A program made the translations under genes and the position numbers. This document shows, one piece after another, positions 904-28,466 of a DNA stretch of 64,000 bases. Under the pieces are notes generated by a model, which was given only the letters and a program-made list of their open reading frames with translations, ran no database searches and was not told the DNA's origin. The DNA comes from Qipengyuania vulgaris (lineage in GTDB: Bacteria; Pseudomonadota; Alphaproteobacteria; Sphingomonadales; Sphingomonadaceae): positions 1-64,000 of the forward strand of contig NZ_WTYC01000006.1 of NCBI RefSeq assembly GCF_009827325.1, read 5' to 3'. The number at the start of each line of letters is the position of its first letter. Within the stretch, counting starts at the first letter, position 1.

Positions 904-1307
904 CCGAAAAGACCGTCACCGAAAACGCCGAAACAATCGTCATGCCGAAAACGACCGATACCGCTGCTGGCGATGTCACCGACGCCCATTACAACGATGA
1001 CCAACGTTGGGCCGAAGCCGTCATTGCCAGCCTGCCTTCACGCTCACGCGAAGCGCGAACAGCGTTGGTAAAGGCTTTACTGGACGGTGATGCCTCCTTG
1101 TCCGCTCCTGTCGGGTGCGCCATTAGCGAAAATCCGCAGAGTTCTGGGATTTTCGGTTTCACCCGACAGGAATATGATGGGCACCTGATGGCGACTTTGG
1201 GGCCGATAGCTGCCCGTCCGTGTACAGGCGCAGGAAGGGCGAAAGCTGCCGTTAGGAAGTCACGACCTCTTGGAAGGGGGCTACCGTGGCACAGTTCACT
1301 CCTATGA
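900..1307 (+). pseudogene. Hypothetical ORF whose 3' part is replaced by repeat R1
   Basis: 135-codon ORF. The first 70 residues (acidic, with DDQRWAEAVIASLPSRSREA) look protein-like and unrelated to anything I recognise. From base 1110 the reading frame runs into dispersed repeat R1, so the tail beginning at VGCAISENPQ is translated repeat, not native sequence. The original C-terminus has therefore been lost or displaced. The strand opposite carries the extended tail of the acyltransferase ORF, so only one of the two readings may be real. Its start overlaps the previous stop. Confidence 0.35.
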
Positions 1308-2527
1308 GGGCGTTGACGCTTTAATTTTCCGTGGCCGGTCTCGGCATCATCTTCTCTCTTCTTTTGAATTGGCGCTTTCCTCTTCAGCCCGAGGAATGGT
1401 CGCAGCCACCCAACTCTACGACCGAGCTCATACGTCAGTATGCATCCTGCTAGCGTCGCAAATAGGATGATTGCGAACTGAGATGGTGCAGCGATGCCCG
1501 TTTGCTTGAGCCAGAACCCTACAGCGATGATGATGGTTTGGTGGACGATGTAGAAAGGGAAGATTGCCTCAGTCAGGTACCGCCGCGCCTGGCTATCCCG
1601 GTGGAGATGGGACTGGGCAAAACCAAGCAGCCCGAGAATTGCGCACCACGCGAGTGTAGCGCGCGCGGCGATGCGAGAGGCTTCTATAAGCGCGGAGCCA
1701 TTCCCTTGTGCATGGATAGCAAACATCGCGAGGCAAGCCAGCACCGCTATGAGCAGGAGGTGCTTCCATGCGCCTAAAATCCCGGTCCACGCAGTATTCG
1801 ACCGAGCCAAGGCAACCCCGAAGAAGAAACTGAAGCCGTAGACTGCATGAGCATAAGGATCATCCACTAAGGCATGGGTCTCGCCAAATGCCGGGTGAAG
1901 TGCATACCGAACGATGGTTAGCCAAACGATCGGCAATACGATCAGCCGCCAACCGGAAAACAGCTTGTCGAAGCCATGCTGGATTTTCGGGCGCAGTTCG
2001 ACTGGCAGGGCAGCGAGAATGGCAAGCCCCATCGTATAAACCCAAAGATAGGCAATGAACCAGAGGTGGTTCCATGTGGGTAGCGGAGTGCCGCGGCTTC
2101 CTCCGAATTCGAAGTAATCGTTAAGCCAGAAATGAAGTAACCCGTCCTCGTATCCACCCCTGTCCCTCAGCTCGAACCAAGGTTGGGGCGCGACGAAGAT
2201 CACCATTCCCGCCAAAAGTGGGAGGAGCAGGCGGATCGAGCGACTAGCGGCGAAACTTCCTGGACGGACTAACTTTGTGATTAGCGCACGGGAGACGACA
2301 CCCGAGATCACGAACAACAGCATCAGGCGCCAGGGATTAATTGCCATCATCGGCCACACAGCCCAATCGATCGGCTCGGCAGTCTTTACGTGCCAACCCC
2401 ATGGCACAAAGAACATGCCGATATGATACACGATCAAGAGCCCGAATGCGCCGATCCTGAGCCAGTCCAGACCGAATTGTCGGCCGGTAAGCGCTACGGC
2501 AGCTTGCATCTCATTTCTCCTTGCCAT
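989..2527 (-). CDS. Acyltransferase 3 family membrane protein with repeat-derived tail
   Basis: Polytopic membrane protein, likely transferring acyl groups to a carbohydrate or lipid at the inner membrane (acyltransferase 3 / OpgC-like). The first 390 residues contain about ten hydrophobic segments, beginning with LDWLRIGAFGLLIVYHIGMF, where the Asp, Arg and His are typical of the family's first helix; WNHLWFIAYLWVY and FPFYIVHQTIII are also family-like. After GLKRKAPIQKKRED (about residue 395) the sequence turns hydrophilic and reads through repeat R1 (AIRCPSYSCRVKP), so the last 110 residues are probably acquired rather than functional. It is divergent from the LytTR regulator at 2621, a plausible regulator-target pair. 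ATG start at 2527. Substrate unknown. Confidence 0.82.
   Translation of the reverse strand: MARRNEMQAAVALTGRQFGLDWLRIGAFGLLIVYHIGMFFVPWGWHVKTAEPIDWAVWPMMAINPWRLMLLFVISGVVSRALITKLVRPGSFAASRSIRLLLPLLAGMVIFVAPQPWFELRDRGGYEDGLLHFWLNDYFEFGGSRGTPLPTWNHLWFIAYLWVYTMGLAILAALPVELRPKIQHGFDKLFSGWRLIVLPIVWLTIVRYALHPAFGETHALVDDPYAHAVYGFSFFFGVALARSNTAWTGILGAWKHLLLIAVLACLAMFAIHAQGNGSALIEASRIAARATLAWCAILGLLGFAQSHLHRDSQARRYLTEAIFPFYIVHQTIIIAVGFWLKQTGIAAPSQFAIILFATLAGCILTYELGRRVGWLRPFLGLKRKAPIQKKREDDAETGHGKLKRQRPHRSELCHGSPLPRGRDFLTAAFALPAPVHGRAAIGPKVAIRCPSYSCRVKPKIPELCGFSLMAHPTGADKEASPSSKAFTNAVRASREREGRLAMTASAQRWSSL
1110..1222 (+). repeat. Fold-back repeat copy R1 (right half only)
   Basis: Starts abruptly at GTCGGGTGCGCC and contains the core (CGAAAATCCGCAG... 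degenerate on its right side), the middle right arm GAATATGATGGGCACC and the outer right arm with CTTTGGGGCC. The left half present in R2-R5 (GGCGCAAAGCTGCC... to CAGTGCCCATCA) is missing. The copy lies inside two opposed ORFs: it ends the native part of the plus ORF at 900 and lengthens the acyltransferase C-terminus. Confidence 0.85.
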
Positions 2528-2620
2528 CTAACCTGCCAACCGGATTAAGGTGGGGGTTGACCGGGCGCACGCGGGTCGTGATCAACGGCGGAGCCGACGG
2601 GCTAAAACGTGGGAGGCAGA

Positions 2621-3460
2621 TTGACGAACGGCGGGGATCAAGGGCCGAGCGGTGTCCAAGCCTTTGGGCAGTTCTGGCGCGACCCTCGATGGATCGCTGC
2701 CATAACCTTCCTGGTCTTTGGTTTCATCTATATGCTGGTCAACGCGGCAAGTCTGATCGATCAGCGACGCGCCTTAGGCCAGCCAATCGCCACTTCGCAT
2801 GCTTGGGCACTTGAAGGCAGCAGCTATGCTGCCTGGCTCCTTCTGCTTCCGTTGGTCTTATTTATAGCAGCGCGCCTCGCTGAAGGTGCATTCTGGCGGG
2901 CAGTCGCATTCCACTTTGTAACCTGCATCTTCATCTCCCTTGCCCATAGCGGGGCTATGTTCGCGATCCGCGCTGTGATCTTTTTATGGGCTGGAATCGA
3001 TTACACGCTGTCTGATTCAGTCGGCGGATATCTGGTGTTTGAGCTTCGAAAGGACGTAATCACTTACGTCTCGATCCTCGCAGTTTTTCTGATTGCCAGG
3101 CACATCGGCGTAATCTCAGCACTGTCCCGTGGCAGCGACGACAACTCAGATGACCTGATCGAAGTTCGCGATGGTAGTCGCGTGGTGATGCTGCGGACCG
3201 GCGAAATCGATTGGATCGGAGCAGCCGGTAACTATGTCGAATTGCACGGCCCGTTCGGCAGCGTATTAGCCCGCCGAACTTTGGCGGATCTCTCACAGGA
3301 ACTGGAACCACGCGGTTTCGTGCGGGTTCATCGCTCGCGCTTGGTTCGGCGTTCTGCAATCGCCACCATCACTACCCGACAAAGCGGCGATTTCGACATC
3401 CAGCTCCGCTCGGGGGAGAGTATCGTTGGCAGTCGGCGTTTCCGCCAGAGGCTGGCGTGA
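2621..3460 (+). CDS. Membrane-anchored LytTR-type transcription regulator
   Basis: Four hydrophobic segments fill the first 170 residues (AITFLVFGFIYMLVNAASL, LLLPLVLFIAARL and others). A LytTR DNA-binding domain fills the last 95: IEVRDGSRVVMLRTGEIDWI, then GNYVELHG, TLADLSQELEPRGFVRVHRS and GESIVGSRRFRQRL. There is no receiver domain, so the membrane part is presumably the sensor. I prefer the TTG at 2621, with GGGAGG 4 bases upstream, over the in-frame GTG at 2609, which would place that Shine-Dalgarno inside the gene. It diverges from the acyltransferase gene, its most likely target. Confidence 0.85.
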   Translation: MTNGGDQGPSGVQAFGQFWRDPRWIAAITFLVFGFIYMLVNAASLIDQRRALGQPIATSHAWALEGSSYAAWLLLLPLVLFIAARLAEGAFWRAVAFHFVTCIFISLAHSGAMFAIRAVIFLWAGIDYTLSDSVGGYLVFELRKDVITYVSILAVFLIARHIGVISALSRGSDDNSDDLIEVRDGSRVVMLRTGEIDWIGAAGNYVELHGPFGSVLARRTLADLSQELEPRGFVRVHRSRLVRRSAIATITTRQSGDFDIQLRSGESIVGSRRFRQRLA

Positions 3461-3647
3461 CAGCCCTGAGATGTATCGGAACGGCGGATGCGGGGCGGTT
3501 AGCTGTCCGTCTGCTTTCGGCCAAATTCATCTAAAAGCTGCCATCCCACGTAAGACGCCATGTTTGGAACTCATTGCTAGTCTCCGTTGGAGAATAGCGG
3601 TCGAGTTGGTGCATGCCACATTCGGACCGAGCGTGTATTGAACGGGC

Positions 3648-4934
3648 GTGAAACCCAAGATACTCACTACCCTCCGCGACTATTCGTGGAGCCAGTTCGG
3701 GGTCGATGCACTCGCAGGTGTAACCGTGGCCCTAGTCGCACTCCCGCTAAGCATTGCCATCGCCATTGCGTCAGGCGCGCCACCTGCCGCCGGTCTGGTC
3801 ACAGCTATTGTCGCCGGATTTGTGATTTCGGCTCTGGGCGGCAGCCGGGTGCAGATCGGTGGCCCCACCGGAGCGTTCATCGTGGTGGTATACGGCATCA
3901 TCCACGATCATGGCTATGACGGCTTGCTGATCACCACGCTGATGGCCGGGTTGATTCTTCTACTGGCAGGTTTCCTGCGCGCGGGACACCTTATTCGCCA
4001 CGTTCCCGAAGCAGTTATCGAAGGCTTCACGCTTGGCATTGCGGTGGTGATCGCGGTCAGCCAGCTCAAGGACTTTGCTGGGATGACCGGCCCCGCGTTG
4101 CCTGCCGAATTCCTACCCAAGCTCGAAGGGCTTTGGGCAATGCGACAATCCATCGATCCTGTTAGCGTCGGAATGGGCGTCAGCGCGGTTGCGGCGATGC
4201 TGATCCTGCGCCGCCTGGCGCCGCGAATCCCGTGGCTGGTGCTGGTAGTTGTGCTCACCAGCGTTGCGACAGCGCTTGGCTTGGCACCCGTTGAGACTGT
4301 GAGCGCTAGATATGGTGCGCTGCCGGATACCCTGCCGATGCCGTCACTTCCGAAGATGAGTGCCGACCTGCTGGTCGCGTTGCTTCCGTCAGCACTCACC
4401 ATCGCCTTTCTCGCGGGTATCGAATCCCTGCTCTCCGCAATCGTAGCCGACCGGATGATCGGCGGTGCTCACCGTTCCAATGCAGAGCTGATCGCACAAG
4501 GAGCCGCTAACATTGCTTCACCCCTCTTTGGAGGCCTGCCTGCGACCGGTGCGATTGCCCGCACGGCCACCAATGTGAATGCAGGCGGACGTACACCGGT
4601 TGCTGGCATGATTCATGCTATTGTCGTGTTTTTGGTCTTGCTGGTGGCAGCGCCACTGGCAGGTGCGCTCGTGCTGCCCGCGCTCGCAGCCTTGCTGGTT
4701 GTGACAGCCTGGACAATGAGCGAACCGCACCGCTGGTCCGATCGGTTCCGCTTGCCCAAGGCAGATCTTGCGTTGCTATTAGGAACTGCTGCCATGACAG
4801 TTCTAGCAGACCTCTCTGTCGCCATTGCGGTCGGGACGATGATCGGACTCGCCCTTAGGCTCTCGCGTGGAGAGATAGAAGCTCCAAGCTGGCACACGCC
4901 ATTCCGCTGGGGCGGAGACAAGCGTGAGGACTGA
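3648..4934 (+). CDS. SulP family anion transporter lacking a STAS domain
   Basis: 428-residue permease with about ten to twelve membrane segments. SulP signatures are visible: FGVDALAGVTVALVALPLSI at residues 17-36, VQIGGPTGAFIVVVYGII near 70, PEAVIEGFTLGIAVVIAVSQ near 120, and a conserved stretch around GIESLLSAIVADRMIGGAHR followed by NAELIAQGAANI. It ends soon after the last helix, so the cytoplasmic STAS domain usual in SulP proteins (normally about 550 residues) is absent. Anion specificity (sulfate, bicarbonate, other) cannot be inferred. GTG start with a weak ribosome binding site. The 187 bases upstream carry a GAAAGCAGAC-type motif in reverse at 3501-3518. Confidence 0.9.
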   Translation: MKPKILTTLRDYSWSQFGVDALAGVTVALVALPLSIAIAIASGAPPAAGLVTAIVAGFVISALGGSRVQIGGPTGAFIVVVYGIIHDHGYDGLLITTLMAGLILLLAGFLRAGHLIRHVPEAVIEGFTLGIAVVIAVSQLKDFAGMTGPALPAEFLPKLEGLWAMRQSIDPVSVGMGVSAVAAMLILRRLAPRIPWLVLVVVLTSVATALGLAPVETVSARYGALPDTLPMPSLPKMSADLLVALLPSALTIAFLAGIESLLSAIVADRMIGGAHRSNAELIAQGAANIASPLFGGLPATGAIARTATNVNAGGRTPVAGMIHAIVVFLVLLVAAPLAGALVLPALAALLVVTAWTMSEPHRWSDRFRLPKADLALLLGTAAMTVLADLSVAIAVGTMIGLALRLSRGEIEAPSWHTPFRWGGDKRED

Positions 4935-5027
4935 CCTACTAGCGTTCGCACGGATGCTGGCAGTATTGTCGGGTCGCTAGAAGACCGTCCGCTACGATTG
5001 GGATCGGGTGGATGCTACTGGAGGGAT

Positions 5028-5543
5028 ATGAAAATGAATATCCGGCTTTCGATTTTGTTTTTCGCGATGTTCGCCCTCGCCGCCTGCGTAACGTCGAATG
5101 CTCCTTCCGCCACTGAGAGAATACCACTTCAGGGTGAGAGATCGATCTTTGTTACCAGGCACATGCAAAAAGCCGCAGGTGAGGATCCGGTTCTCAATCC
5201 TGAAGGCTTAGCCGCGGCCGAGCAGCTCGCGGATCTACTGGCAAGCCGAGATATCAAGGGGATCTTCGCCACCGCAACCCGAAGAGCGATGGAAACCGCA
5301 GCCCCCCTTTCAGCGAGGATTGGCGTCCCAATCGCTACCTACAATCCGCGGGATCCCGATTCACTCGCCGCCGCGGTATCTCAGGTCAAAGGCGATGTGC
5401 TGATAGTGGGTCACAGTAACACCGTTCCCCAACTCGTCGCGAGTTTCGGAGGCCATCCGCTGCCGGAAATGACCGAACAGGACTATGGAACGGTATTCAG
5501 GATTGATGCCAACGGTAGCGTCCGTCTGATAATTCTGGATTGA
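5028..5543 (+). CDS. Histidine-phosphatase-family lipoprotein (SixA/PGAM-like)
   Basis: 171-residue exported lipoprotein: signal peptide followed by lipobox LAAC with Cys20. The mature part is a histidine phosphatase fold. The catalytic motif is TRHMQK, where most members have RHGxR or RHAE; ATATRRAMETA supplies the usual arginine and glutamate, and VGHSNTVPQL supplies the second histidine. It would remove phosphate from a periplasmic substrate. The ATG at 5028 and another at 5034 are both served by GGAGGG at 5020-5025; the spacing of 9 favours 5034, which would drop two residues. The replacement of the motif-1 glycine by methionine is unusual, but both histidines are present. Confidence 0.85.
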   Translation: MKMNIRLSILFFAMFALAACVTSNAPSATERIPLQGERSIFVTRHMQKAAGEDPVLNPEGLAAAEQLADLLASRDIKGIFATATRRAMETAAPLSARIGVPIATYNPRDPDSLAAAVSQVKGDVLIVGHSNTVPQLVASFGGHPLPEMTEQDYGTVFRIDANGSVRLIILD

Positions 5544-5614
5544 TGTCGTGGTTCGTCAGAGAGTGAGGAACGATCACTCACCCCCACCAAGATTTGTGAA
5601 AGAATCCGGCGCCC

Positions 5615-6655
5615 ATGATTTCACATGATATAATCGTAATTGGCGGAGGGCAGATGGGGCTCGCACTTGGCTATTACCTAAGGCGTGCTCGCACTGATTT
5701 TTTAATTCTCGATAGCGAACCTGGCCCCGGCGGTACCTGGCGGCACGGATGGGATTCGCTTCGGCTCTTTTCTCCGGCCGGATACAGTTCGCTCCCTGGC
5801 TGGCTGATGCCTCCCGCAGATCATGACGGATTTCCAACTCGTGATGAAGTGATCGCCTATTTCTCACGGTATGAGGAACGCTATGATCTGCCAGTAGACC
5901 GGCCGATCAAAGTCCTCGAGATCCAGCGAGCGGGCGAGGGGCTCGTCATAAATACACATACAGGAGACTACACGGCAAAGCTCGTGGTCAGTGCGACCGG
6001 GACTTGGTCCAAGCCTTACGTTCCAGATATTCCCGGGCGACGCCGGTTCGAAGGTCGGCAAATACATTCAGCGGACTACCGCGCGCCCGATCAGTTTGAA
6101 GGACAGAGGGTGCTTGTTGTTGGGGGCGGCAACAGCGGAGCCCAAATATTCGCCGAAGTCGCGGATGTGGCGGCGGAGGCCGTTTGGGTCACCATCCGCG
6201 AACCGATCCTTCTGCCGGATGATGTCGATGGGCGCGTTCTGTTCGAGCGTGCGATTGCAAGGTTGAAGACAGGAAATCGGGATGAACCGGTGGGCGGGAT
6301 CGGCAATATCGTGATGGTTCCGCCAGTAAAGGCGGCCCGCGATCGCGGAATTTTACGCTCCGTCCGTCCGTTCGTCCGAATGACCGAGACAGGGGTGGTA
6401 TGGCAGGATGGTCGTGAGGCCGAGGTCGACGCAATCATTTGGTGCACCGGCTTCCGGCCCGCTCTCGATCATCTGCGCTCGCTCAATGTCTTGAACGGTG
6501 ACGGACGAGTGGATTTGCAAGGCCACCAAACAATCGAAGAGCCTAGGCTCTGGCTTGCTGGGTATGGGGATTGGAGCGGACCCGGTTCGGCCACCATCAT
6601 GGGGGCGGGACGAACCGCTCGTGATCTGGTCCCGCGGTTGATTTCATGCCTTTAA
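5615..6655 (+). CDS. ArsO-like FAD/NADPH flavoprotein monooxygenase
   Basis: 346-residue two-dinucleotide-binding flavoprotein. The FAD-binding Rossmann motif IIVIGGGQMGLALGYYLRRA lies at residues 6-25, the NADPH-binding motif VLVVGGGNSGAQIF near 168, the VVSATGTWSKP turn near 125 and AIIWCTGFRP near 275. The N-terminal half (PGGTWRHGWDSLRLFSPAGY, SSLPGW) closely fits the ArsO-type flavoproteins often found in arsenic resistance operons. No arsR, arsC or arsB is next to it here, so the arsenic role is only an analogy; a general flavin monooxygenase is the alternative. No clear ribosome binding site. Confidence 0.82.
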   Translation: MISHDIIVIGGGQMGLALGYYLRRARTDFLILDSEPGPGGTWRHGWDSLRLFSPAGYSSLPGWLMPPADHDGFPTRDEVIAYFSRYEERYDLPVDRPIKVLEIQRAGEGLVINTHTGDYTAKLVVSATGTWSKPYVPDIPGRRRFEGRQIHSADYRAPDQFEGQRVLVVGGGNSGAQIFAEVADVAAEAVWVTIREPILLPDDVDGRVLFERAIARLKTGNRDEPVGGIGNIVMVPPVKAARDRGILRSVRPFVRMTETGVVWQDGREAEVDAIIWCTGFRPALDHLRSLNVLNGDGRVDLQGHQTIEEPRLWLAGYGDWSGPGSATIMGAGRTARDLVPRLISCL

Positions 6656-6751
6656 GCCACCCATGTCCCTAGCTCCGAATTGCAAGCCTAGTCTGCAGCC
6701 CTGGTCAATCAGATTGGATCCAGATCACTTCCCGACCAATCCGGCTTTTTC

Positions 6752-6774
6752 AACGTGAAAAACACGTTTGTTTT
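6752..6774 (+). terminator. Possible terminator after the ArsO-like gene
   Basis: AACGTG and CACGTT form a 6-bp stem with an A5 loop, followed by TGTTTTC. It lies about 100 bases after the stop at 6655. The stem is short, so the call is tentative. Confidence 0.4.
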
Positions 6775-6811
6775 CAGGGCAGAATTCGTTTCGGTGACTG
6801 ACCCAAATAAA

Positions 6812-6995
6812 GGCGCGAAGCGGTCATCATTGGGGTAGGAGAACTAAAATTTCCCAATGATTACAGTGCCCATCACTTTCATGTCGGGTGCGCCATTAGC
6901 GAAAATCCGCAGAATTCTGGGATTTGCGGATTTACCCGACAGGAAAGTGATGGGCACCTGATGGCGGCATTGGGGCCGAGAGCAGAGCGTCCGCC
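6812..6995 (+). repeat. Fold-back repeat copy R2 (full length)
   Basis: Complete copy with nested arms. The middle arms GTGCCCATCACTTTC (6866-6880) and GAAAGTGATGGGCAC (6943-6957) are perfectly complementary over 15 bp. Inside them, GTCGGGT (6883-6889) pairs with ACCCGAC (6934-6940). The core around AGAATTCT is imperfect in this copy. The outer right arm runs into GAGAGCAGAGCGTCCGCC. It lies between the ArsO-like gene and the DUF2868 gene without interrupting either. Spurious ORFs on both strands read through it. Confidence 0.9.
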
Positions 6996-7180
6996 AGGAC
7001 ACAGAGCCGCCCCGAAAGCGGTCGCTGCCCCTTCTATCTTCTCCTTTCAAAGAGAAGTAACTCGCTCTTACCTGCTGCGGATCAGGCGGGCTCCTATTCA
7101 TACTCAAATGTGGCTTGAATTGCGCGTCGTTTGCATAACTAAGGTTCGCACGTATGGTCCGGTCAACCGGGGAGTTCCCA

Positions 7181-8656
7181 ATGCGAGAAGACGATGCGCG
7201 TGCGTTTGAGCTCGTCCGTGCTTTTGAGATGGAGGATAGCGACGCTACGTTGCTAACCCGTGAGGATCGGGCCCAAGCTGACGCCGTTGCGCGGAGTGCC
7301 GCAGCGGGCAAATCCGATAAGTGGGCTGGCAAGGAATTTCTTGTCGCTCGTGCGCGCTTTGCCGCCTTACGATTGAAAACACGACATCCCGGCATTGCCA
7401 CTCTCAGCTCTCGCAGCAGTTGGCCACGTTGGCTTGGCGTGGTGCTTCCAGTGTTGGCACTGGGACTGGGCCTCCTTGCGAACGAATTCGGGCAAGGCAA
7501 GCGGATGGATCTGCTCGCGGTGCCCCTGCTCGGTACCATTGCGTGGAACCTCCTCGTTTACCTTTGGCTGCCGGTAGCGGCGGTGAAGGGCATCGGCAGG
7601 CCCCGCCACGACCCGATCTCGCGCGCCGTCGGCTGGATCGCGGGCACAGCGCGTCGCGATTTCAACCGCGGCACGCCGCTCCAACGCGCCGCCGACACCT
7701 TCCAGCGGCGATGGTCAAAGCTCACCGCCCCGCTTGCCGGAGCGCGCATCGCCCGCACGCTACATCTGTCGGCCGCGCTATTCGCCGCCGGAGTGATCGC
7801 GGGCATCTACCTACGTGCGCTGGTGGTGGAATATCGCGCGGGATGGGAAAGTACTTTCCTCGATCCCGAGGCTGTCCATGGTTTGCTGGCCACGGTGCTT
7901 GGCCCCGCGATCGCACTGACCGGCGTGGACATTCCACCTGCAAGCGATTTCCCCGCGCTGCGCTGGAGCAACGGAGATGGCATAATCGCGGGACCATTGA
8001 TCCATCTGTGGACTACGACTTTGGCAGGCGCAGTAATCCTTCCGCGACTGGCGCTGGCGCTATGGCAGGGGTTGAGGGTCGCACGGCTTTCGCATGCCAT
8101 GCAGACATCCGGGCGAGAAGATTTCTACACCAGACGCCTGCTTCGCGCCGGAAGGGGAGATGTGGGCCGTGTACAGGTGACGCCCTATGCCTATACCCCC
8201 GACCATTCGACCAGATCCGCGCTTACCGCCGCACTCGCCCGCGCGCTGGGGGACGGGGCGCAAGTGACTATCGACCCGCCCGTCGCTTATGGCGAGGAGG
8301 AAAACTGGCTTGCCGCGCACTCTCCCGATCCGGGCGTCGATTACCGAGCGCTCCTGTTCTCCGTCGCCGCCACACCTGAGAGTGAAAATCACGGGGCGTT
8401 CGCGAGCGGCGTCGCCAAAACACTGCCCGCCGGGACGATGCTGGCGGCGTTGGTGGATGAAGGCCCGTTCCGCTCCCGGTTCGAGCGGCAAGCGGGATTC
8501 GAAGAACGGATCGGCGGACGATCTGCGGCATGGCGCAGCGTCCTTTCCGAGGCGGGCATCGTTCCGCTCTCGCTCGACCTTTCGAGAGGCGAAACAGAAT
8601 CGCTTGCCGAGCGACTGGAAGGCGGACTACTCCCCGATGCGGAGCTTCGCCGATGA
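7181..8656 (+). CDS. DUF2868 domain membrane protein
   Basis: About 491 residues. Hydrophobic segments lie near residues 85-105 (LGVVLPVLALGLGLLANEFG), 115-135 (LLGTIAWNLLVYLWLPVAAV), 185-205 (HLSAALFAAGVIAGIYLRAL) and 265-285 (LIHLWTTTLAGAVILPRLAL). A cytoplasmic C-terminal half follows, with an ARALGDGAQVTIDPPVAYGE stretch. This is the DUF2868 pattern, which usually travels with a DUF3482 GTPase, exactly the arrangement here (ATGA overlap at 8653-8656). I prefer the ATG at 7181, preceded by GGGGAG, over the in-frame ATG at 7154. The two products probably form one membrane complex; its function is not established. Confidence 0.85.
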   Translation: MREDDARAFELVRAFEMEDSDATLLTREDRAQADAVARSAAAGKSDKWAGKEFLVARARFAALRLKTRHPGIATLSSRSSWPRWLGVVLPVLALGLGLLANEFGQGKRMDLLAVPLLGTIAWNLLVYLWLPVAAVKGIGRPRHDPISRAVGWIAGTARRDFNRGTPLQRAADTFQRRWSKLTAPLAGARIARTLHLSAALFAAGVIAGIYLRALVVEYRAGWESTFLDPEAVHGLLATVLGPAIALTGVDIPPASDFPALRWSNGDGIIAGPLIHLWTTTLAGAVILPRLALALWQGLRVARLSHAMQTSGREDFYTRRLLRAGRGDVGRVQVTPYAYTPDHSTRSALTAALARALGDGAQVTIDPPVAYGEEENWLAAHSPDPGVDYRALLFSVAATPESENHGAFASGVAKTLPAGTMLAALVDEGPFRSRFERQAGFEERIGGRSAAWRSVLSEAGIVPLSLDLSRGETESLAERLEGGLLPDAELRR

Positions 8657-19301: not shown

Positions 19302-19646
19302 ATGTTCAGCAGCGAAAGCTTCCTGACGGGCGATTAGCTTCCGACACCGATGACGGACCGTCCTCTACCAACCCAAGTGGGTGGTTACGACGACCGATCC
19401 CAAGGCTAGCACATCTTGACGAAAAACCCTCCTCATTCGGCGAACGGGATCATGGATCCGGATGCGTGACAATTGGGTTTCGAGCGGTCGGAATGGAAGT
19501 TGAGATTACCTTCCTGAGGGGGCGTCCAAGTGTTCATTCTTGGTCGCCAGTGCACGTCATGCAGTTGGCCTCACAGGCTCTCTGAATGCGTGTGATGTGT
19601 TTTATTTGGGCTTCGCATAAAGCCGTCATAATCTGGGGTCGATACT
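19302..19646. other. Upstream region of the RTX gene
   Basis: 345 bases without a convincing gene, presumably holding the RTX promoter. A plus ORF at 19271-19585 overlaps the hydrolase end and is probably spurious. A 12-base match to the IS1111 right end occurs at 19517-19528 without further similarity. Confidence 0.5.
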
Positions 19647-22600
19647 GTGGCTGATTTTACTGGTACCTCCGGCAATGATAACATTGTCGGCACTGCGGGT
19701 TACGATTGGATCGAAGCGGGGGCGGGCAACGATACGGTAACCGGACTTGGTGGGGCCGATTATATTTACGGCGGCGAAGGTAACGATGACCTCGATGGCG
19801 GTGACGGAGATGACTACATCGTTGGCGGTGAAGGGGCCGACACCATTAATGGAGGCGATGGCGATGACGAGGTTTACTCTTCGAGGTGGAACGGCCTTAC
19901 AGATATTTTGCTTGATGGCGGTGCCGGCACCGATTTCCTGAATTTGGACATCGGAATATACGATCTCGCGGTCACCTTCAGCATTGCCGACCCGGCTATC
20001 GATCAGAACATTGCCGGCATCATCGTCCGCGGATTTGAACAAATCCATTACGTCGGTGGTGACGGCGTCGATACCGTCACCGGGGGCGCGCTTGACGACT
20101 TCTTTTTCGGCTGGGGCGGAGACGACACATTCAATGGCGGCGGCGGTGATGACATCATCAACGGCGGGGCCGGTAGAGACACGCTGAGCGGCGGTGACGG
20201 TAACGATACACTTCGCAGCGAGGCGTATTCTGGCGCAAACCAAACCGACATACTGATCGATGGCGGTGCAGGGATCGACTTTGCCGAAATCTCCAAAGTT
20301 CTCGCCACGACCGCAATCACGTTCGATATCACCAACTCAAATGTCTCGCAGACTATCGACGGAACTGTGGTCGTAAATGTCGAACGGATCGATTATTACG
20401 GTGGCAGCAACGTTGATACAATCACCGGCGGCGCTTTTGGCGACATCATTCACGGCAACACTGGAGACGACATTCTGTCGGGTTCTGGCGGAGACGACTT
20501 CCTGTATGGGCAGGAAGGCGACGACACGCTCGCGGGCGGATCTGGCACGGACCTTCTCAACGGTGGTGACGGCAACGACGACCTCGATGGCGGTGACGGA
20601 AATGACACGCTCACTGGCGAAGCAGGCGCCGACACTATGCGCGGCGGCAACGGAATCGACCAGATTTACGTTGTACTTGCAGCGGACGGTAGTTCCGACC
20701 TGCTTGCCGATGGCGGAGACGGCTACGACACATTAATCTACGATGCCACGCTTTACGGCACCGGGGCAGCTTTCGACCTCTCGGCAACGGGCGATAATGT
20801 CGCTCATGGCACCACTATCCGCAACTTCGAGCGGGTCCAGTTCTATGGTGGGACCGGTGCCGACACGGTTACCGGAACGGCTGGCAACGACGAACTCTAC
20901 GGTAATCAGGGCGACGATATTCTTGATGGCGCCGACGGCAATGACCGGCTCGAAGGCAGTATCGGCAACGATACGCTGCGCGGGGGTGCGGGGAACGATA
21001 TCCTGCTGGGCCAGGACGGTGATGACACACTGGAAGGCGGCGAAGGCAATGACCAGCTCGAGGGACTGGAAGGTTCCGACGCAATGTATGGCGGCGATGG
21101 GGACGATATAATTTACAGCCGCGATTATGCGGGCATGGCGAATGACACTATCGTTTCAGGTGGGCTTGGCGTCGATACGCTGGTCCTCGACCGAACGCTT
21201 AGCACAGCATCGGTAACTCTCGATTTCGGGAACGGCACCGATCAGCAGGCTGACGGGACGACCATCAGCGGCATCGAACAGGTCGTATTCTACGGCGGCA
21301 CTGGTGATGACATCGTCACGGGCGGCAACCTTGCAGACGAACTGAACGGCGGAGTGGGCAACGACACATTGTCCGGCGGTGCCGGATCGGACGAATTGTA
21401 CGGCGGTGCCGGCAGCGACAGCTACTTTGGCGGTGACGGCGACGATATCATCTACACCCAGATCGTGGACGGCGTGGTGGACACGCTGGTCGATGGCGGG
21501 TCAGGCAACGATTATGCCCTCATCGATCAAACCCTGAGCGTGGCGGCTCTGGTTTTCGACGCCGGGGCATCTGGTGACCAAGTGGTTGATGCCACCACGA
21601 TCCGGTCGGTCGAACAGGTCGATTTCTATGCAGGTTCGGGCGACGATATTCTGATCGGCGGCGATTTTGCGGACGAGCTGTACGGCAATGCCGGCAACGA
21701 CACTCTTTCCGGCGGTGATGGCGACGATGCGCTGTATGGCTCAACCGGAAACGATATCATTGCCGTTGGCGGCGGCAATGACACTGTCGACGGTGGCAGC
21801 GGAACCGATACTCTGGTGCTGACCGGAAACCGGGCCGACTATCAGATCACGGATGACAGCGGCACGGTCGAGATTATCGATCTCCGCTCGGGTTCGCCTG
21901 ATGGGACCAATTCGGTGACCAGCATCGAAAGCGTCCAGTTTGCCGACGGTACCTTTACAATGACGGAGGTTGCAGTTCGCACCTTCTACGGGACTGAAAG
22001 TAACGACTATCTGACTGGAAGTACCGGTGCGGACATTATCTACGGATATGGCGGCAATGACACCATCAGCGGCGGGGCCGGTCCAGACACGTTTTATGGC
22101 GGCGATGGCGACGACACGATCAGTACTTACATTGAACCTGACGGCGTAGCGGACATCCTGGCCGACGGCGGTGCAGGAAACGACACCCTATCACTCTCTA
22201 TTGTTTATAGCACAGAAGCTGCGAACTTCGATCTTTCACCAGGCGGCGAATTCGTGATCGCCGGGACGACAATCCGCGATTTCGAAACCTATCAGCTTAG
22301 TCTCACCGAGTTCGATGACACCGTGATACTCGGCGACGGCAATGACCGCGTTTATGCCCGCGCCGGCGACGATACAATCGTCGGCGGCATAGGCAACGAC
22401 GTCCTTTATGGCGAAGAGGGCAACGACACGCTCGCTGGCGGTATGGGAGCCGACAGTCTCAACGGAAGCATCGGTGATGACTCCCTTACCGGCGGTTTGG
22501 GCAACGACAACCTAAATGGCGGCGCTGGTGCCGACACTATGGAAGCGGGCGAGGGTGATGACAGCGTAACCGTAGATGCCGACGACATCCTTGCCGATGG

Positions 22601-25600
22601 CGGTGACGGTATTGATTTGCTTAACCTGAGGGGCCTACACAATTTCACGCTCGACCCCAGCGGTGCCGATTTCGTTGCGGGTTCCTTGACGATCCGGAAT
22701 TTCGAGATCGTGAGCTATTACAGCTCGGAAGCAATTGCGGCGAATATTACTGGCGGACAGTATAATGATACTATGACCGGCGGCGATGCTGGCGATACTT
22801 TTGTGGGCCTCGCCGGGAATGACAGGCTCAGCGGAGAGCTCGGCAACGACAATCTCAGCGGCGGGGATGGCGACGACACTCTCGAAGGCGACGAAGGCAA
22901 CGACACAGCTCTGGGCGGAGCGGGCGCCGACGATATCGAAGGCGGTACAGGCAACGACAGTCTTGATGGCGGCGACGACGACGATCTCGTGGTCGGCGGC
23001 GACGGAGACGACATTGTTCGCGGCGGCGCAGGCGACGACCGGGTATTTGGAGATGAACAGAGTGAATACAGTTCGACCCAAGGCAGCGACACACTCTACG
23101 GCGATGCGGGCGATGACACGCTAAACGGCGGCGCCGGCATCGACGCGATGTATGGCGGCGATGGCGACGATACCCTGTTTAGCACCACACGCTATTATTT
23201 ATCCGGAACCGGTTTTGTCTTCGAAAGCGTGACGGACAGTGTGATCGATGGTGGTGCGGGCTTCGATTTTGCGGAGATCATTCGGACCGGCAGCAGCGCG
23301 AATGTCACCTTCTCGATTGCTGATCCCAACATCGCTTCCACCAGCGGCGGGATGACGATTGTTGGCATCGAGCAGCTCGAGTATACTGGTGGCTCGGGAC
23401 GCGACAACGTCACGGGCGGTGCGTATGCCGATATTATTTCCGGTGGAGAAGGCAACGATGTCCTGTCCGGCGGTGGCGGCAATGACGAACTGATCGCGGG
23501 TCTTGGCGCGGATTCGCTCTATGGCGGCGCGGGTGACGATACGCTGAGGTCGATCCAGCGATACAATGATGGCAGCGGCTGGGTTTACGATACAGCGCGC
23601 CCTGTGATGCTCGATGGCGGTGACGGTATCGACTTCCTGCAGATCGAACTGAATTCTTCGACCGGCACGAATATCTTCGACCTTTCCGATCCTGCAATTG
23701 CCTCAACGTCAGGCGGAACCACCATCGTTAATGTCGAACGCATCGACTATCGTGGCGGAACGGGCAGCGATATTGTGACTGGCGGCGCTCTTCTCGATAT
23801 CATTTATGGCGGCGCTGGCGAAGATACACTTTCCGGCGGCGGATGGACTGACCAGCTATATGGCGAAGAAGGCGACGATACACTGCATGGCGGCGACGAC
23901 AGGGACGTTCTGGTCGGCGGCGCGGGAAGCGATGCGCTCTACGGTGACGACGGCGACGATAATGTGACTGCCGATCACCTCGATAGCGTTGTCGACGGTG
24001 GCGCTGGCACGGACTATCTCAGGTTGGAAGCTTATGCGTCAACAGCCGCGATCACGCTGGACATTAGTGATCCGACACTGGTTCAGGTCACTGGCAATAC
24101 GTCGATAAGTGGCTTTGAGCAGCTCCTTTTCTCAGGCGGAAGCGGAGATGCCGCTGTAACCGGCGGCGGACTTGCGGACACGCTAAATGGCGGCGCAGGG
24201 AACGACACTTTGCGTGGCGAGGGCGGCGATGACACCATCAGGGGCGGCGACGGGATCGACGCGCTCTACGGCGGCGACGGCGACGACAACATAACGGCCG
24301 ACCTCGACGATAGTGTGATCGACGGCGGGGACGGCAATGACAGATTAACGTTCTTTGCCACCGGCTCTACCGGCAACATCAACTTTACAATGTCAAATCC
24401 GGATACCGCTACGATATTTGGCAGCACAACCATCAGCGGGATCGAGCAGTTCAGCTTTTACAGTGGTGCTGGAAATGACTCGGTCACCGGTGCCTCAGGC
24501 AACGATTATCTCAGGGGCGGCAGCGGCGACGATGTTTTGAGCGGCGGCGCTGGCAATGACATTCTGGATGGCCAATCCGGATTGGATACGCTTTATGGCG
24601 GCGCGGGCGATGACCAGCTGACCCTGAACATCGGCGATGCGCTCATCGACGGCGGAAGTGGTGAGGATTATCTTCGCGCAACTCTCTCCGGATTCAGCGG
24701 CGCGGTCATTCTCGATCTCACTTCCCAAGCCGATCAGCTTACGGCTGGGACAATCGTTCGCAGTATCGAACGGCTGTATATCGAAACTGGGGCAGGCAAT
24801 GATGAACTGACCGGCGGCGACCTGGACGATTATTTCCGGACCAACGCGGGTAATGACATCGTGTTCGCCGGAGGCGGAAACGACTCAATTTATGGCACCA
24901 GTGGCCTCAATGAATTGCACGGCGGAACCGGGGACGACACCGTCAATGGCGGTGCCGATGATGATCAGCTCTTCGGCGATGACGGCGACGATTACCTGTA
25001 TGGCGGCAATGGCGGCAACGACTACATCGAGGGCGGCGCAGGAAACGATAGCATCATTGTTTATAGAGGTGCGAATACCATCCTTGCCGGGGCAGGTGAC
25101 GACGCAATCACAAGCGGTTACTCCGACCGCATTGATGATGTTCTGATCGATGGCGGTGCGGGTTTCGATCTGCTGACTATGAACCTTGAATACATGATTG
25201 GTTCTATTGTTGCCGATTTCTCTGACCCGTCCGCTGATCAGCTGATCGGAGCCACGGTCGTCCGTGGGATTGAGATCGTGGACCTTCAACTTGGCAACTA
25301 CGCCAATGATGTCACTGGTGGCGCCTACGGAGACAGGTTGATTGGCGGCGACCTCGACGATCAGCTTACCGGAGGAGGCGGCGACGACGTCCTCGAAGGC
25401 AGGGGCGGTGACGATATTCTGCTTGGCGGTGCCGGCAACGACCACCTTTCCAGCGGTGGCGGGGATGACCTGATGTATGGTGGATCGGGCAACGACATAC
25501 TCGCCGTTTCTGGTGGAAACGTCTTGGCTGATGGCGGGAGCGGTATCGATCTGGCGACCCTCTCTTTCCACTCACCCTACGAAGGGATCTATCTGGACTA

Positions 25601-27692
25601 CGCGGGGCAGACGGGCGGGGTTTTTGTTACCTCGAACAATTCAACAGCAACACTGGTTTCGATTGAACGCCTTTCGGTATCCGCGACAAGCTTTGCCGAT
25701 ACCATTCTACTCGGCGACTATGATGACATCGCAGACGGTCGGGACGGGGATGACGTCTTGAACGGGCGCGCCGGGAACGATGATCTTCACGGTGGTAACG
25801 GTGACGACGAACTCGACGGCGACACTGGCGACGATTATCTCCGGGGCGGCAATGGCCATGATTTCCTGATGGGCGGCAACGGTGCAGACGAATTGTTGGG
25901 CGAGTACGGGGCTGATACACTTGAAGGCGGCGACGGCGATGATGTGATCGATGGCGGCTACGGGGCTGACATTATCAACGGCGGCGCCGGCAATGACCTC
26001 ATGACTGGCGGTTACGGCGATGACGATGACTTCATCGATGGTGGCGGCGGCATTGACACCGTCAGTTATTCGGGTTCCCGCAACATCGCAGTTAATATCG
26101 ACCTCGAGTTGAGCGTTCAGGCGTCGCATGAAGTTCTAGGGAGCGATACGCTGACCAACATCGAGAATGTTGTCGGTTCTAACCGCGCAGATAGCCTTGC
26201 TGGTGACGGCGGCGCAAATATGCTCGACGGCTCAGGAGGCAACGATATATTGACGGGACGCGGCGGCGACGATGTCCTCGAAGGTGGATATGGCGATGAC
26301 TGGCTCGACGGCGGTGCAGGCAACGATACCGCGTCTTACGAAACGTCAGGTGGAGGGGTCTCGATTACTCTGGCGGTGCAAGGTGTTGCGCAAGAATTCT
26401 CAAGCAATTACGGCGCCGACACGCTTGTCGGGATCGAGAACCTGACTGGATCGGCCTTCGCCGACACGCTGACGGGCGACGCTGCACAAAACATCCTGAC
26501 GGGCGGAGCCGGCGATGATTTGATTTTCGGCGCTGGCGGCAGCGACACGCTTGATGGAGGCGGCGGGGTCGATGATCTTGTCGGCGGCAACGGTTGGGAC
26601 ACGCTCGATGGCGGCGCTGGGAATGACAGGCTGGAAGGCGGCAACGGTAACGATTTTCTATTGGGCGGCTCTGGCTGGGATTCGTTGGAAGGCGGCAACG
26701 GCGACGATTTGATCAACGGCGGCAGCGGCAGCGATACCGCGACCTATGTTGGCGCGACGGCAGGCGTATCTGTCAGCCTCGCAACCAGCATTGCACAGGA
26801 CACTGTGGGAGCAGGTATCGATACACTTTCCGGCATCGAAAATCTCACCGGCTCGTCTTTCGCCGACACGCTGACGGGTGATGAAGGGGTGAATTTCATT
26901 TTTGGCGGCTTGGCCGATGATGTGTTATCCGCCGGCGGGGGTTCGGACCGCCTGTACGGCGGGGACGGCGACGATGCCATGGTCGGTGGCAGCGGCTGGG
27001 ACCAACTTATAGGCGCCGACGGCGATGATGTGATGACCGGAGGCAACGGCGGCGACCTGTTCAAGGGCGGCGCGGGCAATGATACCGTCTTCGGTGGCAA
27101 CGGCACGGACCGCGCCTATCTCGGCAACGACAATGACACGGCTTGGGGCGGCGCGGGCGACGATCTTCTCCTCGGTCAGGTCGGCGACGACGTACTTTAC
27201 GGCGATGACGGCGATGATAACCTAATGGGATCGATCGGCGCGGATTATCTCGACGGGGGAGCGGATAACGATACGCTTAATGGTGGCGGGCACGACGATA
27301 TCTTGATTGGCGGCGCGGGCGACGATGTCCTCATCGGCAGCTGGGGCATCGATACTCTGACCGGCGGGACGGGAGCCGACACCTTCGTGTTCAATACCGG
27401 CCATACCGGTCGCTGGCAGGGAATTGCTGATGTGATCACTGATTTCAGCCAGGCTGAAGGGGACATCATCGACCTGTCTGCAATCGATGCGGTTGCCGGT
27501 GGCGCCGACGATGCCTTCATCTTCATCGGCAACGCGTCCTTTAGCGGAACGGCAGGCGAACTGCAGTTTTACACGTCAGGCGATGAGACTTTCGTATCTG
27601 GAGATACGGACGGCGACGGAGTGGCCGATTTCGTGATCGCCTTCAACGGAACCGATCTACCCGATCTGACCCCGGGTGATTTCATCCTGTAG
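19647..27692 (+). CDS. Giant RTX calcium-binding repeat protein (2681 residues)
   Basis: Almost entirely hemolysin-type nonapeptide repeats (GGxGxDxLx), which form calcium-bound beta-rolls outside the cell. Blocks of nonapeptides alternate with about 14 non-RTX inserts of 60-80 residues with a shared pattern: DGGAGxD, a strand with FDLS or FSIADP, GTTIxxFE or VERIDY, then GGxGxDxVTGG. Anchors fall near residues 127, 242, 391, 540, 652, 875, 1017, 1237, 1359, 1488, 1595, 1703, 1871 and 2005. Three shorter modules with IENLTGSxFADTLTGD follow (about 2169, 2261, 2395). A NRADYQITDD...VQFADGTF insert is near 735. The last 110 residues (DVITDFSQAEGDIIDLSAID, FSGTAGELQF, DTDGDGVADFVI) match the serralysin-type C-terminal region and imply type I secretion. 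No signal peptide and no catalytic domain. No ABC exporter or membrane fusion gene lies in the window. GTG start. Confidence 0.95.
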   Translation: MADFTGTSGNDNIVGTAGYDWIEAGAGNDTVTGLGGADYIYGGEGNDDLDGGDGDDYIVGGEGADTINGGDGDDEVYSSRWNGLTDILLDGGAGTDFLNLDIGIYDLAVTFSIADPAIDQNIAGIIVRGFEQIHYVGGDGVDTVTGGALDDFFFGWGGDDTFNGGGGDDIINGGAGRDTLSGGDGNDTLRSEAYSGANQTDILIDGGAGIDFAEISKVLATTAITFDITNSNVSQTIDGTVVVNVERIDYYGGSNVDTITGGAFGDIIHGNTGDDILSGSGGDDFLYGQEGDDTLAGGSGTDLLNGGDGNDDLDGGDGNDTLTGEAGADTMRGGNGIDQIYVVLAADGSSDLLADGGDGYDTLIYDATLYGTGAAFDLSATGDNVAHGTTIRNFERVQFYGGTGADTVTGTAGNDELYGNQGDDILDGADGNDRLEGSIGNDTLRGGAGNDILLGQDGDDTLEGGEGNDQLEGLEGSDAMYGGDGDDIIYSRDYAGMANDTIVSGGLGVDTLVLDRTLSTASVTLDFGNGTDQQADGTTISGIEQVVFYGGTGDDIVTGGNLADELNGGVGNDTLSGGAGSDELYGGAGSDSYFGGDGDDIIYTQIVDGVVDTLVDGGSGNDYALIDQTLSVAALVFDAGASGDQVVDATTIRSVEQVDFYAGSGDDILIGGDFADELYGNAGNDTLSGGDGDDALYGSTGNDIIAVGGGNDTVDGGSGTDTLVLTGNRADYQITDDSGTVEIIDLRSGSPDGTNSVTSIESVQFADGTFTMTEVAVRTFYGTESNDYLTGSTGADIIYGYGGNDTISGGAGPDTFYGGDGDDTISTYIEPDGVADILADGGAGNDTLSLSIVYSTEAANFDLSPGGEFVIAGTTIRDFETYQLSLTEFDDTVILGDGNDRVYARAGDDTIVGGIGNDVLYGEEGNDTLAGGMGADSLNGSIGDDSLTGGLGNDNLNGGAGADTMEAGEGDDSVTVDADDILADGGDGIDLLNLRGLHNFTLDPSGADFVAGSLTIRNFEIVSYYSSEAIAANITGGQYNDTMTGGDAGDTFVGLAGNDRLSGELGNDNLSGGDGDDTLEGDEGNDTALGGAGADDIEGGTGNDSLDGGDDDDLVVGGDGDDIVRGGAGDDRVFGDEQSEYSSTQGSDTLYGDAGDDTLNGGAGIDAMYGGDGDDTLFSTTRYYLSGTGFVFESVTDSVIDGGAGFDFAEIIRTGSSANVTFSIADPNIASTSGGMTIVGIEQLEYTGGSGRDNVTGGAYADIISGGEGNDVLSGGGGNDELIAGLGADSLYGGAGDDTLRSIQRYNDGSGWVYDTARPVMLDGGDGIDFLQIELNSSTGTNIFDLSDPAIASTSGGTTIVNVERIDYRGGTGSDIVTGGALLDIIYGGAGEDTLSGGGWTDQLYGEEGDDTLHGGDDRDVLVGGAGSDALYGDDGDDNVTADHLDSVVDGGAGTDYLRLEAYASTAAITLDISDPTLVQVTGNTSISGFEQLLFSGGSGDAAVTGGGLADTLNGGAGNDTLRGEGGDDTIRGGDGIDALYGGDGDDNITADLDDSVIDGGDGNDRLTFFATGSTGNINFTMSNPDTATIFGSTTISGIEQFSFYSGAGNDSVTGASGNDYLRGGSGDDVLSGGAGNDILDGQSGLDTLYGGAGDDQLTLNIGDALIDGGSGEDYLRATLSGFSGAVILDLTSQADQLTAGTIVRSIERLYIETGAGNDELTGGDLDDYFRTNAGNDIVFAGGGNDSIYGTSGLNELHGGTGDDTVNGGADDDQLFGDDGDDYLYGGNGGNDYIEGGAGNDSIIVYRGANTILAGAGDDAITSGYSDRIDDVLIDGGAGFDLLTMNLEYMIGSIVADFSDPSADQLIGATVVRGIEIVDLQLGNYANDVTGGAYGDRLIGGDLDDQLTGGGGDDVLEGRGGDDILLGGAGNDHLSSGGGDDLMYGGSGNDILAVSGGNVLADGGSGIDLATLSFHSPYEGIYLDYAGQTGGVFVTSNNSTATLVSIERLSVSATSFADTILLGDYDDIADGRDGDDVLNGRAGNDDLHGGNGDDELDGDTGDDYLRGGNGHDFLMGGNGADELLGEYGADTLEGGDGDDVIDGGYGADIINGGAGNDLMTGGYGDDDDFIDGGGGIDTVSYSGSRNIAVNIDLELSVQASHEVLGSDTLTNIENVVGSNRADSLAGDGGANMLDGSGGNDILTGRGGDDVLEGGYGDDWLDGGAGNDTASYETSGGGVSITLAVQGVAQEFSSNYGADTLVGIENLTGSAFADTLTGDAAQNILTGGAGDDLIFGAGGSDTLDGGGGVDDLVGGNGWDTLDGGAGNDRLEGGNGNDFLLGGSGWDSLEGGNGDDLINGGSGSDTATYVGATAGVSVSLATSIAQDTVGAGIDTLSGIENLTGSSFADTLTGDEGVNFIFGGLADDVLSAGGGSDRLYGGDGDDAMVGGSGWDQLIGADGDDVMTGGNGGDLFKGGAGNDTVFGGNGTDRAYLGNDNDTAWGGAGDDLLLGQVGDDVLYGDDGDDNLMGSIGADYLDGGADNDTLNGGGHDDILIGGAGDDVLIGSWGIDTLTGGTGADTFVFNTGHTGRWQGIADVITDFSQAEGDIIDLSAIDAVAGGADDAFIFIGNASFSGTAGELQFYTSGDETFVSGDTDGDGVADFVIAFNGTDLPDLTPGDFIL

Positions 27693-27768
27693 AAGGTACT
27701 GGGCGCTCCCTCCGATTGAATTGCTCGTGCCTCGCTTGGTAAAAAGAAATGCTGATGGGCCGCTTCCC

Positions 27769-27789
27769 CGCGAAGAAAGTCTCTTCGCG
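27769..27789 (+). terminator. Possible terminator of the RTX gene
   Basis: CGCGAAGA and TCTTCGCG form a perfect 8-bp stem with a 5-base loop, 77 bases after the RTX stop. No T run follows. Confidence 0.4.
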
Positions 27790-28376
27790 AGAGGTGACGC
27801 AACTAGATTGGCAAGAGCTTTCACTCCTCAGCTTTCGCTGAAAACGGTGACATTGCTAGGGTCGCCTCCACAAGCCTTCCCATGTCCTGAACCCAATTGA
27901 GTGTAAGGAGGATTTCCCGCGGTCCCATATTTGTCGGCACACCCGGTACCGGCAGAACCCGGCGATTACGACGATAGTTGATTGCGATGCGCACCGCGCC
28001 GGACTTGGTCAATCGCCACCAACCCGTTCGTCTGGCCGTTTCTCGACCTGGACAATGCTGCAGGTCGCTACAATCGCATGACTGAACGTTCGGACCGTTC
28101 AGCGCTCTATTTCGATCCCGCGCTTGCGCCGTCCGAAGCGGACGATCTGCCGTAAGGTTCCTAACCCGAATTCCCGCGATCGGAAACCCAGATGGTCTAG
28201 CGGCCCAGTGGTTGCGCTCAATCAGAATACTAAAGGGCAGAGAAAGGAGATTTTGCCCCAACCGGTGCGGCAGCCAGTCGACGTCCTGAGCATTCAAGTC
28301 TGGTAAAAGGAAATACATCAAAAATTTTGGGCGGCGTCGGCTTTTGGGCCACTTGGATCAAGCCATTAATGGCGGC
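27790..28376. other. Stretch with possible gene remnant
   Basis: No intact gene is recognisable. A 57-codon plus frame, 27982-28155, ends in a protein-like segment (TNPFVWPFLDLDNAAGRYNR, TERSDRSALYFDPALAPSEA) and may be the tail of a decayed gene; it is preceded by in-frame stops and has only a TTG start. A long minus ORF (27821-28321) over the same DNA looks like a shadow. The stretch ends at half-repeat R5. Confidence 0.35.
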
Positions 28377-28466
28377 AATGAGGGCGCAAAGCTGCCGTTA
28401 TTAGGGTAGGGAAACTAGAATTTCCCAATGATTACAGTGCCCATCACTTTCATGCCGGGTGCGCCA
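28377..28466 (+). repeat. Fold-back repeat copy R5 (left half only)
   Basis: Carries GGCGCAAAGCTGCC, the conserved TTTCCCAATGATTACAGTG block, the middle left arm GTGCCCATCACTTTC and GCCGGGTGCGCCA, then stops where the core palindrome should begin. It is the reciprocal half of R1: both break within about ten bases of the core. Confidence 0.88.

Follow-up and report, generated by a model that had tools for sequence, protein, structure and literature searches.

The first 28.5 kb of a 64,000-nucleotide stretch of the Qipengyuania vulgaris genome (contig NZ_WTYC01000006.1, positions 1 to 64,000, hereafter the window) contain a family of fold-back repeats, R1 to R5. We read these repeats as attachment (att) sites of gene elements that integrate directly after the CCA of tRNA-Arg genes (anticodons CCG, CCT and TCT), because comparison of empty with occupied sites in relatives places the insertion exactly after this CCA in tRNA-Arg(TCT) and tRNA-Arg(CCG). 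The probability that we attach to this reading is roughly 87%. What moves is not the 180-base palindrome but the gene-bearing DNA that lies between one repeat and the next. Four such elements (E1 to E4, of 5.8, 8.2, 1.9 and 11.5 kb) are read as standing in tandem, the fold-back copies being their end-to-end joins.

R3 was used as query against the window's own genome and 60 relatives (G, C and L numbers below designate genomes, contigs and loci). In the own genome, R2, R3 and R4 were full copies, all on the + strand. R1 covered just query positions 89-201, the right half, and R5 just positions 8-105, the left half, both again on the + strand. The two halves overlap in a 17-base core, identical to the tRNA-Arg 3' end. 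A full site forms a hairpin between two copies of a 25-base arm in inverted orientation, the arm ending in the core motif, and the single-stranded fold of R3, computed with DNA parameters, had z-scores of -6.0 (+ strand) and -6.7 (- strand), with 0 of 200 shuffles as good.

A first-pass annotation of this DNA had reported five fold-back copies sharing about 180 bases in nested arms, without genes inside and confined to the accessory part. The family and its nested arms do lie there, but R1 and R5 are halves only. The sites are mostly free of genes; open frames nonetheless run through them, R1 being traversed by open reading frame (ORF) 900-1307 and by the final part of the minus-strand acyltransferase frame (989-2527), the Pfam match of which stops about 200 bases short of R1. 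The confinement is correct within the window; elsewhere in the genome there are parts of right halves at C14:245023-245116 and C12:423555-423586, and the outer arm only on C6 and C18. The outer arm by itself is weak evidence, because it recurs as an isolated 30-base match in many relatives. No Rfam family reached its gathering score over the repeats, the sole match in the window being tRNA-Leu. A terminator role for the right-half hairpin behind the tRNA is not claimed, because a pattern scan of 15000-15300 picked a different spot (15203-15216).

Right halves begin with the last 17 bases of tRNA-Arg genes. Four reverse-strand matches to the inner inverted copy were dropped first, which left 27 forward right halves, and R4, placed one base off by the script, was entered as a left-half joint from the repeat coordinates. 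Fourteen of the 27 were directly behind an intact tRNA-Arg gene (8 CCT, 5 TCT, 1 CCG), three behind a tRNA-Arg 3' half, five behind a left half and five behind other sequence.

Two pairs of relatives provided empty and occupied sites. For tRNA-Arg(TCT), the empty site of G027 and the site of G031, occupied by a 12.9-kb element, are identical at 74 of 75 bases after the CCA, and the flank behind the left half is 90% identical over 236 nt. For tRNA-Arg(CCG), the empty site of G024 has 66 of 75 bases after the CCA in common with G026, which carries a left half; the two genomes are 94% identical over 400 nt upstream of the tRNA gene, and the tRNA-Arg(CCG) of G026 is found 26 kb upstream of the left half. 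As expected of tRNA-targeted integrative elements, insertion was thus at the tRNA 3' end and the target was kept whole.

The same comparisons bear on the possibility that the palindrome is a non-autonomous transposon (a miniature inverted-repeat transposable element, MITE) moving on its own. A MITE would likewise show nested inverted repeats, several copies and strong folding. However, R1 and R5 are complementary halves overlapping in the core, right halves are located at tRNA-Arg 3' ends, and the empty sites lack the gene-bearing stretches rather than 180 bp. Half-sites at the array ends and the empty-site evidence do not suit a short unit moving whole with a target duplication, and we consider a MITE highly improbable. 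Of the mobile palindrome or structured intergenic element suggested by the first-pass annotation, both mobility and structured intergenic sequence survive in spirit, but not the palindrome as the mobile unit. The comparison of occupied and empty sites that it proposed defined the ends and the target, and the proposed search with R3 returned further copies in the genome and in relatives, mostly partial or half. As to a transposase with similar ends, the ORFs of the window's array scanned with Pfam contained none except an IS110 transposase inside E2, the ends of which were not compared.

Downstream of R5 lies a gene of the diacylglycerol kinase family. Orthologues were present in 54 of 60 genomes of the genus, own genome included, and an intact tRNA-Arg(CCG) stood beside the orthologue in 11 of 29 loci examined. 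Upstream of the tRNA, the own genome is 77% identical to the empty G024 site. The own genome's tRNA-Arg(CCG) is located on contig C1. Positions 1-1122 of the window are repeated at 100% identity at the end of C1 (24825-25946) and at both ends of C7; because its end coincides exactly with the core, the DNA preceding E1 appears to be the right terminus of a different element type. The copy of this other type on C1 has a DUF6538 integrase beside tRNA-Arg(CCG), which is the nearest PF00589 (tyrosine recombinase) match there. Since the contig ends overlap by the same 1122 bases, the order C1-C7-window (C16) is suggested. Judged from these sequences, the array would start with tRNA-Arg(CCG) on C1 and continue with the other element type, E1, E2, E3, E4 and the kinase gene.

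How could such an array be built? The free element would be a circle with a single full site, in which a left half of about 98 nt, ending in the copy of the tRNA 3' end (TGTCGGGYGCRCCA), is followed by a right half of about 95 nt with the hairpin and the inverted core copy. Recombination between this core and the tRNA 3' end would open the circle, so that the tRNA would stay whole, with the right half behind it and the left half next to the chromosome. Another element that entered this tRNA gene would displace the first, and the left half of one and the right half of the other, now back to back, would make up a fold-back repeat. Later arrivals would stand nearer the tRNA. Repeated entry, as proposed for the window, would therefore leave full palindromes between elements and halves at the array ends. 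A tyrosine recombinase is suggested by the 14-17 nt of core identity and by the choice of a tRNA as target; presumably it would act in trans on a circular intermediate.

Table 1. Repeats, elements and flanking features of the window
Feature	Positions	Strand	Content or remark
R1, right half-site = left end of E1	1106..1218	+	core 1106-1122, then hairpin and inverted core; right-half model 108 bits
R2, full site = E1 right end joined to E2 left end	6799..6985	+	core 6879-6895
R3, full site = E2/E3 joint	15028..15208	+	core 15108-15124
R4, full site = E3/E4 joint	16899..17081	+	core 16979-16995
R5, left half-site = right end of E4	28369..28466	+	joined at CCA to chromosome; R3 query 8-105 only
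E1, ~5.8 kb	1123..6895	+	acyltransferase, LytTR regulator, SulP transporter, histidine phosphatase, FAD oxidoreductase (Pfam)
E2, ~8.2 kb	6896..15124	+	DUF2868 and DUF3482/GTPase proteins, DUF3597, DUF937, IS110 transposase (Pfam)
E3, ~1.9 kb	15125..16995	+	single weak peptidase M10 match, 25.0 bits, cut-off 24 (Pfam)
E4, ~11.5 kb	16996..28466	+	LuxR-type match below cut-off, esterase-like match, 2681-aa RTX protein (Pfam)
Putative right end of another upstream element type	1..1122	+	serine resolvase 131-670, ORF 900-; ends exactly at core
Chromosomal marker, diacylglycerol kinase family	28613..29707	+	Pfam; often beside intact tRNA-Arg(CCG) in relatives

Matches to R3 were found in 21 of 61 genomes, namely the own genome and 20 of 36 of its genus, several of them to the outer arm only, and in none of 24 genomes from other families of the order. 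Half-sites recur on the same strand, the right half upstream and the left half downstream, as in G031 and on C1 and C3 of G034. Models were then built from sequence only, the right half from 13 sequences and the left half from 22. The right-half model matched 11 of 60 genomes of the genus (E 1e-5) and 11 of 397 genomes of the family, an even draw from the larger family, in 8 of 96 genera (E 1e-6). The left-half model, some matches of which were partial, detected 26 of the 60 genus genomes and 53 of the 397 family genomes (28 of 96 genera). Beyond the window, full copies were seen only twice (G033, G076 C8), versus many halves.

Elements or their ends reach plasmids, because in a plasmid search two Sphingobium xenophagum conjugative plasmids, and only these, carried the left half (L057 and L058, 12001-12085), positioned downstream of a UvrA/formaldehyde-dehydrogenase block. 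The 24-kb stretches fetched from these two plasmids contained no right half, and a second left-half variant had no plasmid match. Concerning phage carriage, no phage record was obtained and no IMG/VR contig exactly matched one left-half pattern.

Eighteen elements had both ends, 13 in the window's genus and 5 in five other genera. They measure 0.73 to 17.4 kb, and the smallest hold one or two genes (0.7-1.8 kb). Among the matches listed, PF00589 was inside only two of the 18 (G034 C3, and G028, with a stop) and absent from the other 16, six genera being represented; the matches counted for G000 (own genome), G031, G034 and G032 were all individually listed. An integrase of its own, as a tRNA-targeted element would carry, is found in 2 of 18 elements. 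The window had no PF00589 match in 1-28466, so none in E1-E4. Since most packages examined are without a recognisable recombinase, something other than themselves probably moves them.

The cargo is varied. In E4, positions 19647-27692 encode the 2681-amino-acid (aa) protein, with 50 RTX calcium-binding repeat stretches. In the elements of nine relatives, 54 of 69 selected ORFs were scanned with Pfam, 15 ORFs being left out; the cargo was unrelated, and these 54 had no recombinase or transposase name beyond the recombinases of G034 C3 and G028. The Pfam matches were TRAP/TonB sugar uptake (G031), a Na/H exchanger (G034 C1), Ku, LigD, chaperonin, Hsp20 and a tyrosine recombinase (G034 C3), HEPN/RES (G079), spore-coat-U/usher pili (G076 C6), TPR (G076 C8), CheB-CheR-kinase (G032), GGDEF and the decayed recombinase (G028), Gp49 (G230) and LytTR (G318). 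TauE, pyridine-nucleotide oxidoreductase, BLH phosphatase, Lactamase_B, AhpC and ArsR-type genes in G067 likely serve sulfide handling, and the HEPN/RES and Gp49 families are likely toxins.

The scarcity of recombinases could also be read as decay. Integrative conjugative elements, each losing its own integrase independently (CIMEs), would leave such remnants, and the pattern published for them, in the available part of PMC5704250, is that elements accumulate in tandem at a target gene and retain their att sites. Against this stand the absence of any transfer-gene family among the 54 of 69 ORFs scanned and the elements that hold only one or two genes. Moreover, similar long att ends around unrelated cargo fit shared-site capture better than repeated decay. 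Such independent decay is unlikely in our judgment; both ends are kept in 18 elements, 2 of which hold a recombinase. In the same available part, CIMEs formed by site-specific accretion have att ends, lack integrase and transfer genes, and stand in tandem at a tRNA 3' end or other target; the elements described here resemble them in the att ends, in the tandem arrangement and, as far as the ORFs scanned show, largely in those missing genes. They differ in that the joined att sites here are palindromic, about 180 nt long and similar in several genera, and that no parent conjugative element was seen (PMC5704250). The fGI-2 of Methylophilaceae, an additive island with 20-nt tRNA-Lys repeats and a size of 330 bp to 42 kb, likewise has variable gene blocks with tRNA 3'-end repeats; the accessible text describes only the 20-nt repeat, whereas long conserved arms are present here on both sides (PMC10872708). 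In our reading, the elements described here are of the same kind and accrete in the manner of CIMEs or additive islands, the site being long and palindromic. What the available parts of PMC5704250 and PMC10872708 do not describe for CIME accretion or additive islands is such a site across genera, one- and two-gene elements carrying it, and the lack of a recombinase in 16 of 18 elements (among the matches listed).

Tycheposons, as summarised in the available part of PMC10872708, also are cargo elements beside a tRNA gene, but have a tyrosine recombinase and a size of 4-200 kb; here sizes go down to 0.7 kb, a tRNA borders 14 of 27 right halves and the recombinase is absent from 16 of 18 elements (among the matches listed), which does not match the tycheposon type. 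The strand-biased circularizing elements SE-6945 and SE-6283 are also small integrative elements with cargo, with two tyrosine recombinases and no inverted repeat detected in att according to the part of PMC9345347 at hand, which is the reverse of the situation here. The pdif modules of Acinetobacter, by their description, are, like most of the elements here, gene modules lacking a recombinase; a host recombinase serves them in trans, at Xer/dif-type sites on plasmids and chromosomes. In the literature on this bacterial group no paper on such sites was found, most subscription journals lying outside the search.

Which enzyme, then, would move the elements? A family of small, 210-aa tyrosine recombinases (L033:8825-9454) is a tentative candidate, to which we give somewhat less than an even chance. 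In two genera its gene is divergently oriented and separated from the left half by some 240-325 bp (G197/L188, and G028, where the gene has a stop). The G034 C3 element contains an intact copy, and a fragment of the gene follows, at about 210 bp, a tRNA-Arg(TCT) that has a right-half stub. However, it was beside only 2 of 69 distinct left halves examined (42 rows compared by eye and 28 loci, one common to both), and the 20 regions fetched around copies of the gene had no att half (best E 0.09). Plasmids commonly carry matches to it (1280 of 72,556 records at E 1e-5, of which only 122 reach 60% identity), and several genomes with att halves, G018, G031 and G023 among them, have no such gene at E 1e-20. 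By eye, conserved-looking bases were noted before small recombinase genes (for example L145, L150, L152); they include words of the type GGAC..TC.GC..CGGCCC, similar to the right half-site at its far end. A stricter pattern gave no such word before the L145 gene, and the single L150 match lies elsewhere. The serine resolvase upstream of R1 was rejected as partner enzyme: it sits in the 1122-bp repeat also present on C1 and C7 and was matched by 0 of 30 first-fetched loci (1.5-kb flanks).

Integron gene cassettes have no integrase of their own and are arrayed, each with a foldable end site, at a fixed platform. The elements described here share with them the array, the fixed platform and, in most cases, the lack of an integrase; their site folds strongly in 13 of 18, but with no covariation found within elements. 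In contrast to integrons, the platform here is a tRNA gene, core identity is 14-17 nt and no tyrosine recombinase is linked; neither is an IntI integrase (no PF00589 match in 1-28466), and the attC end boxes were not seen by eye.

Under a folded single-strand mechanism, a possible alternative, the site would recombine in folded, single-stranded form, as attC does, and the tRNA-Arg 3' end would serve as a double-stranded platform. Joined ends folded with z < -2 in 13 of the 18 elements (mean -4.3), whereas five folded poorly (G076C6, G076C8, G302, G230, G318). Each arm has two conserved boxes and a looser middle, and the clearest case is G439, whose two arms carry matching deviations from the consensus. 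Overall, however, arms within one element matched no better than arms between elements (two tests, p 0.26 and 0.23), and RNAalifold on 18 right halves detected a two-sided change in 1 of 20 pairs. Because own arms match no better than foreign arms, two protein sites in inverted orientation explain the palindrome equally well; with recombinase sites so placed, no folded strand is needed to account for it. The existence of one- to two-gene elements of 0.7-1.8 kb would suit an integron-like site, the lack of a tyrosine recombinase gene in the window's array would not, and we judge this mechanism improbable. Marginally less so, though still doubtful, is a broader scheme, an integron-like capture system of Sphingomonadaceae/Erythrobacteraceae in which the tRNA-Arg 3' end would replace attI and the long self-folding site attC, an unlinked recombinase moving cassettes of one gene to 17 kb, possibly via a folded strand during conjugation or uptake.

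Several observations weigh against the att-site reading. Five of the 27 right halves (R1, G022, G067 C1, G230 and G079) have neither a tRNA nor a left half before them; that of G079 is near a contig edge, and the 64 bases available upstream are not tRNA-like. Many left halves are unpaired, many of these outside the genus. In 15 regions upstream of family left halves (up to 20 kb, some ended by contig edges; L217, a duplicate that is part of L216, left out), tRNA-Arg occurred in 3 and a clear right half in 0. In five loci beyond the 18 paired elements (L212, L213, L219, L222, L230), a tRNA-Arg stands 0.85-7.9 kb upstream of the left half and no right half is recognised. Most other left halves followed outside the genus showed neither. 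The 26-kb island of G026 does not begin with a right half after the tRNA, and is not one simple element because no right half directly follows its tRNA. The downstream flank of the window is 60% identical to the empty G024 site, against 57% for shuffles, which is too diverged to align; because of this, the window's own site is argued from the kinase orthologue, the identity upstream of the tRNA and the contig order suggested by shared ends. Both half-site models were run within family genomes only, and the right-half model includes the 17-nt tRNA core, which slightly favours tRNA-adjacent matches. Serine recombinases were sought among the Pfam-scanned ORFs only. Finally, the cognate recombinase, excision and the circle are steps that we infer.

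If the repeats are att sites, they offer a sequence handle for finding gene packages, with exact ends and cargo, in many genomes of the family. The order of arrival should be readable, the package nearest the tRNA being, by inference, the newest. The cargo ranges over sugar uptake, pili, likely sulfide handling, likely toxins, Ku/LigD end joining, sensory kinases and an RTX giant. The question raised is which enzyme moves packages without one of their own, and whether the palindrome acts as DNA duplex or as folded strand.

Some further features were noted. Duplicates of the tRNA-Arg(CCG) 3' half occur 9-27 kb away in many genomes (G061, G035, G014, G008, G067 and others), marking this gene as a hotspot for islands of a second type, in which the tRNA copy is longer. 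On C7, the 1122-bp perfect repeat with the serine resolvase flanks about 10 kb in inverted orientation, a layout that an invertible segment or the end of a composite island could produce. The window encodes another small serine resolvase at 61160-61741, 36% identical to that at 131-670. At 46949-48369, a tRNA-Leu(TAA) is directly adjoined by a 421-aa phage-type integrase, an ordinary tRNA island start.

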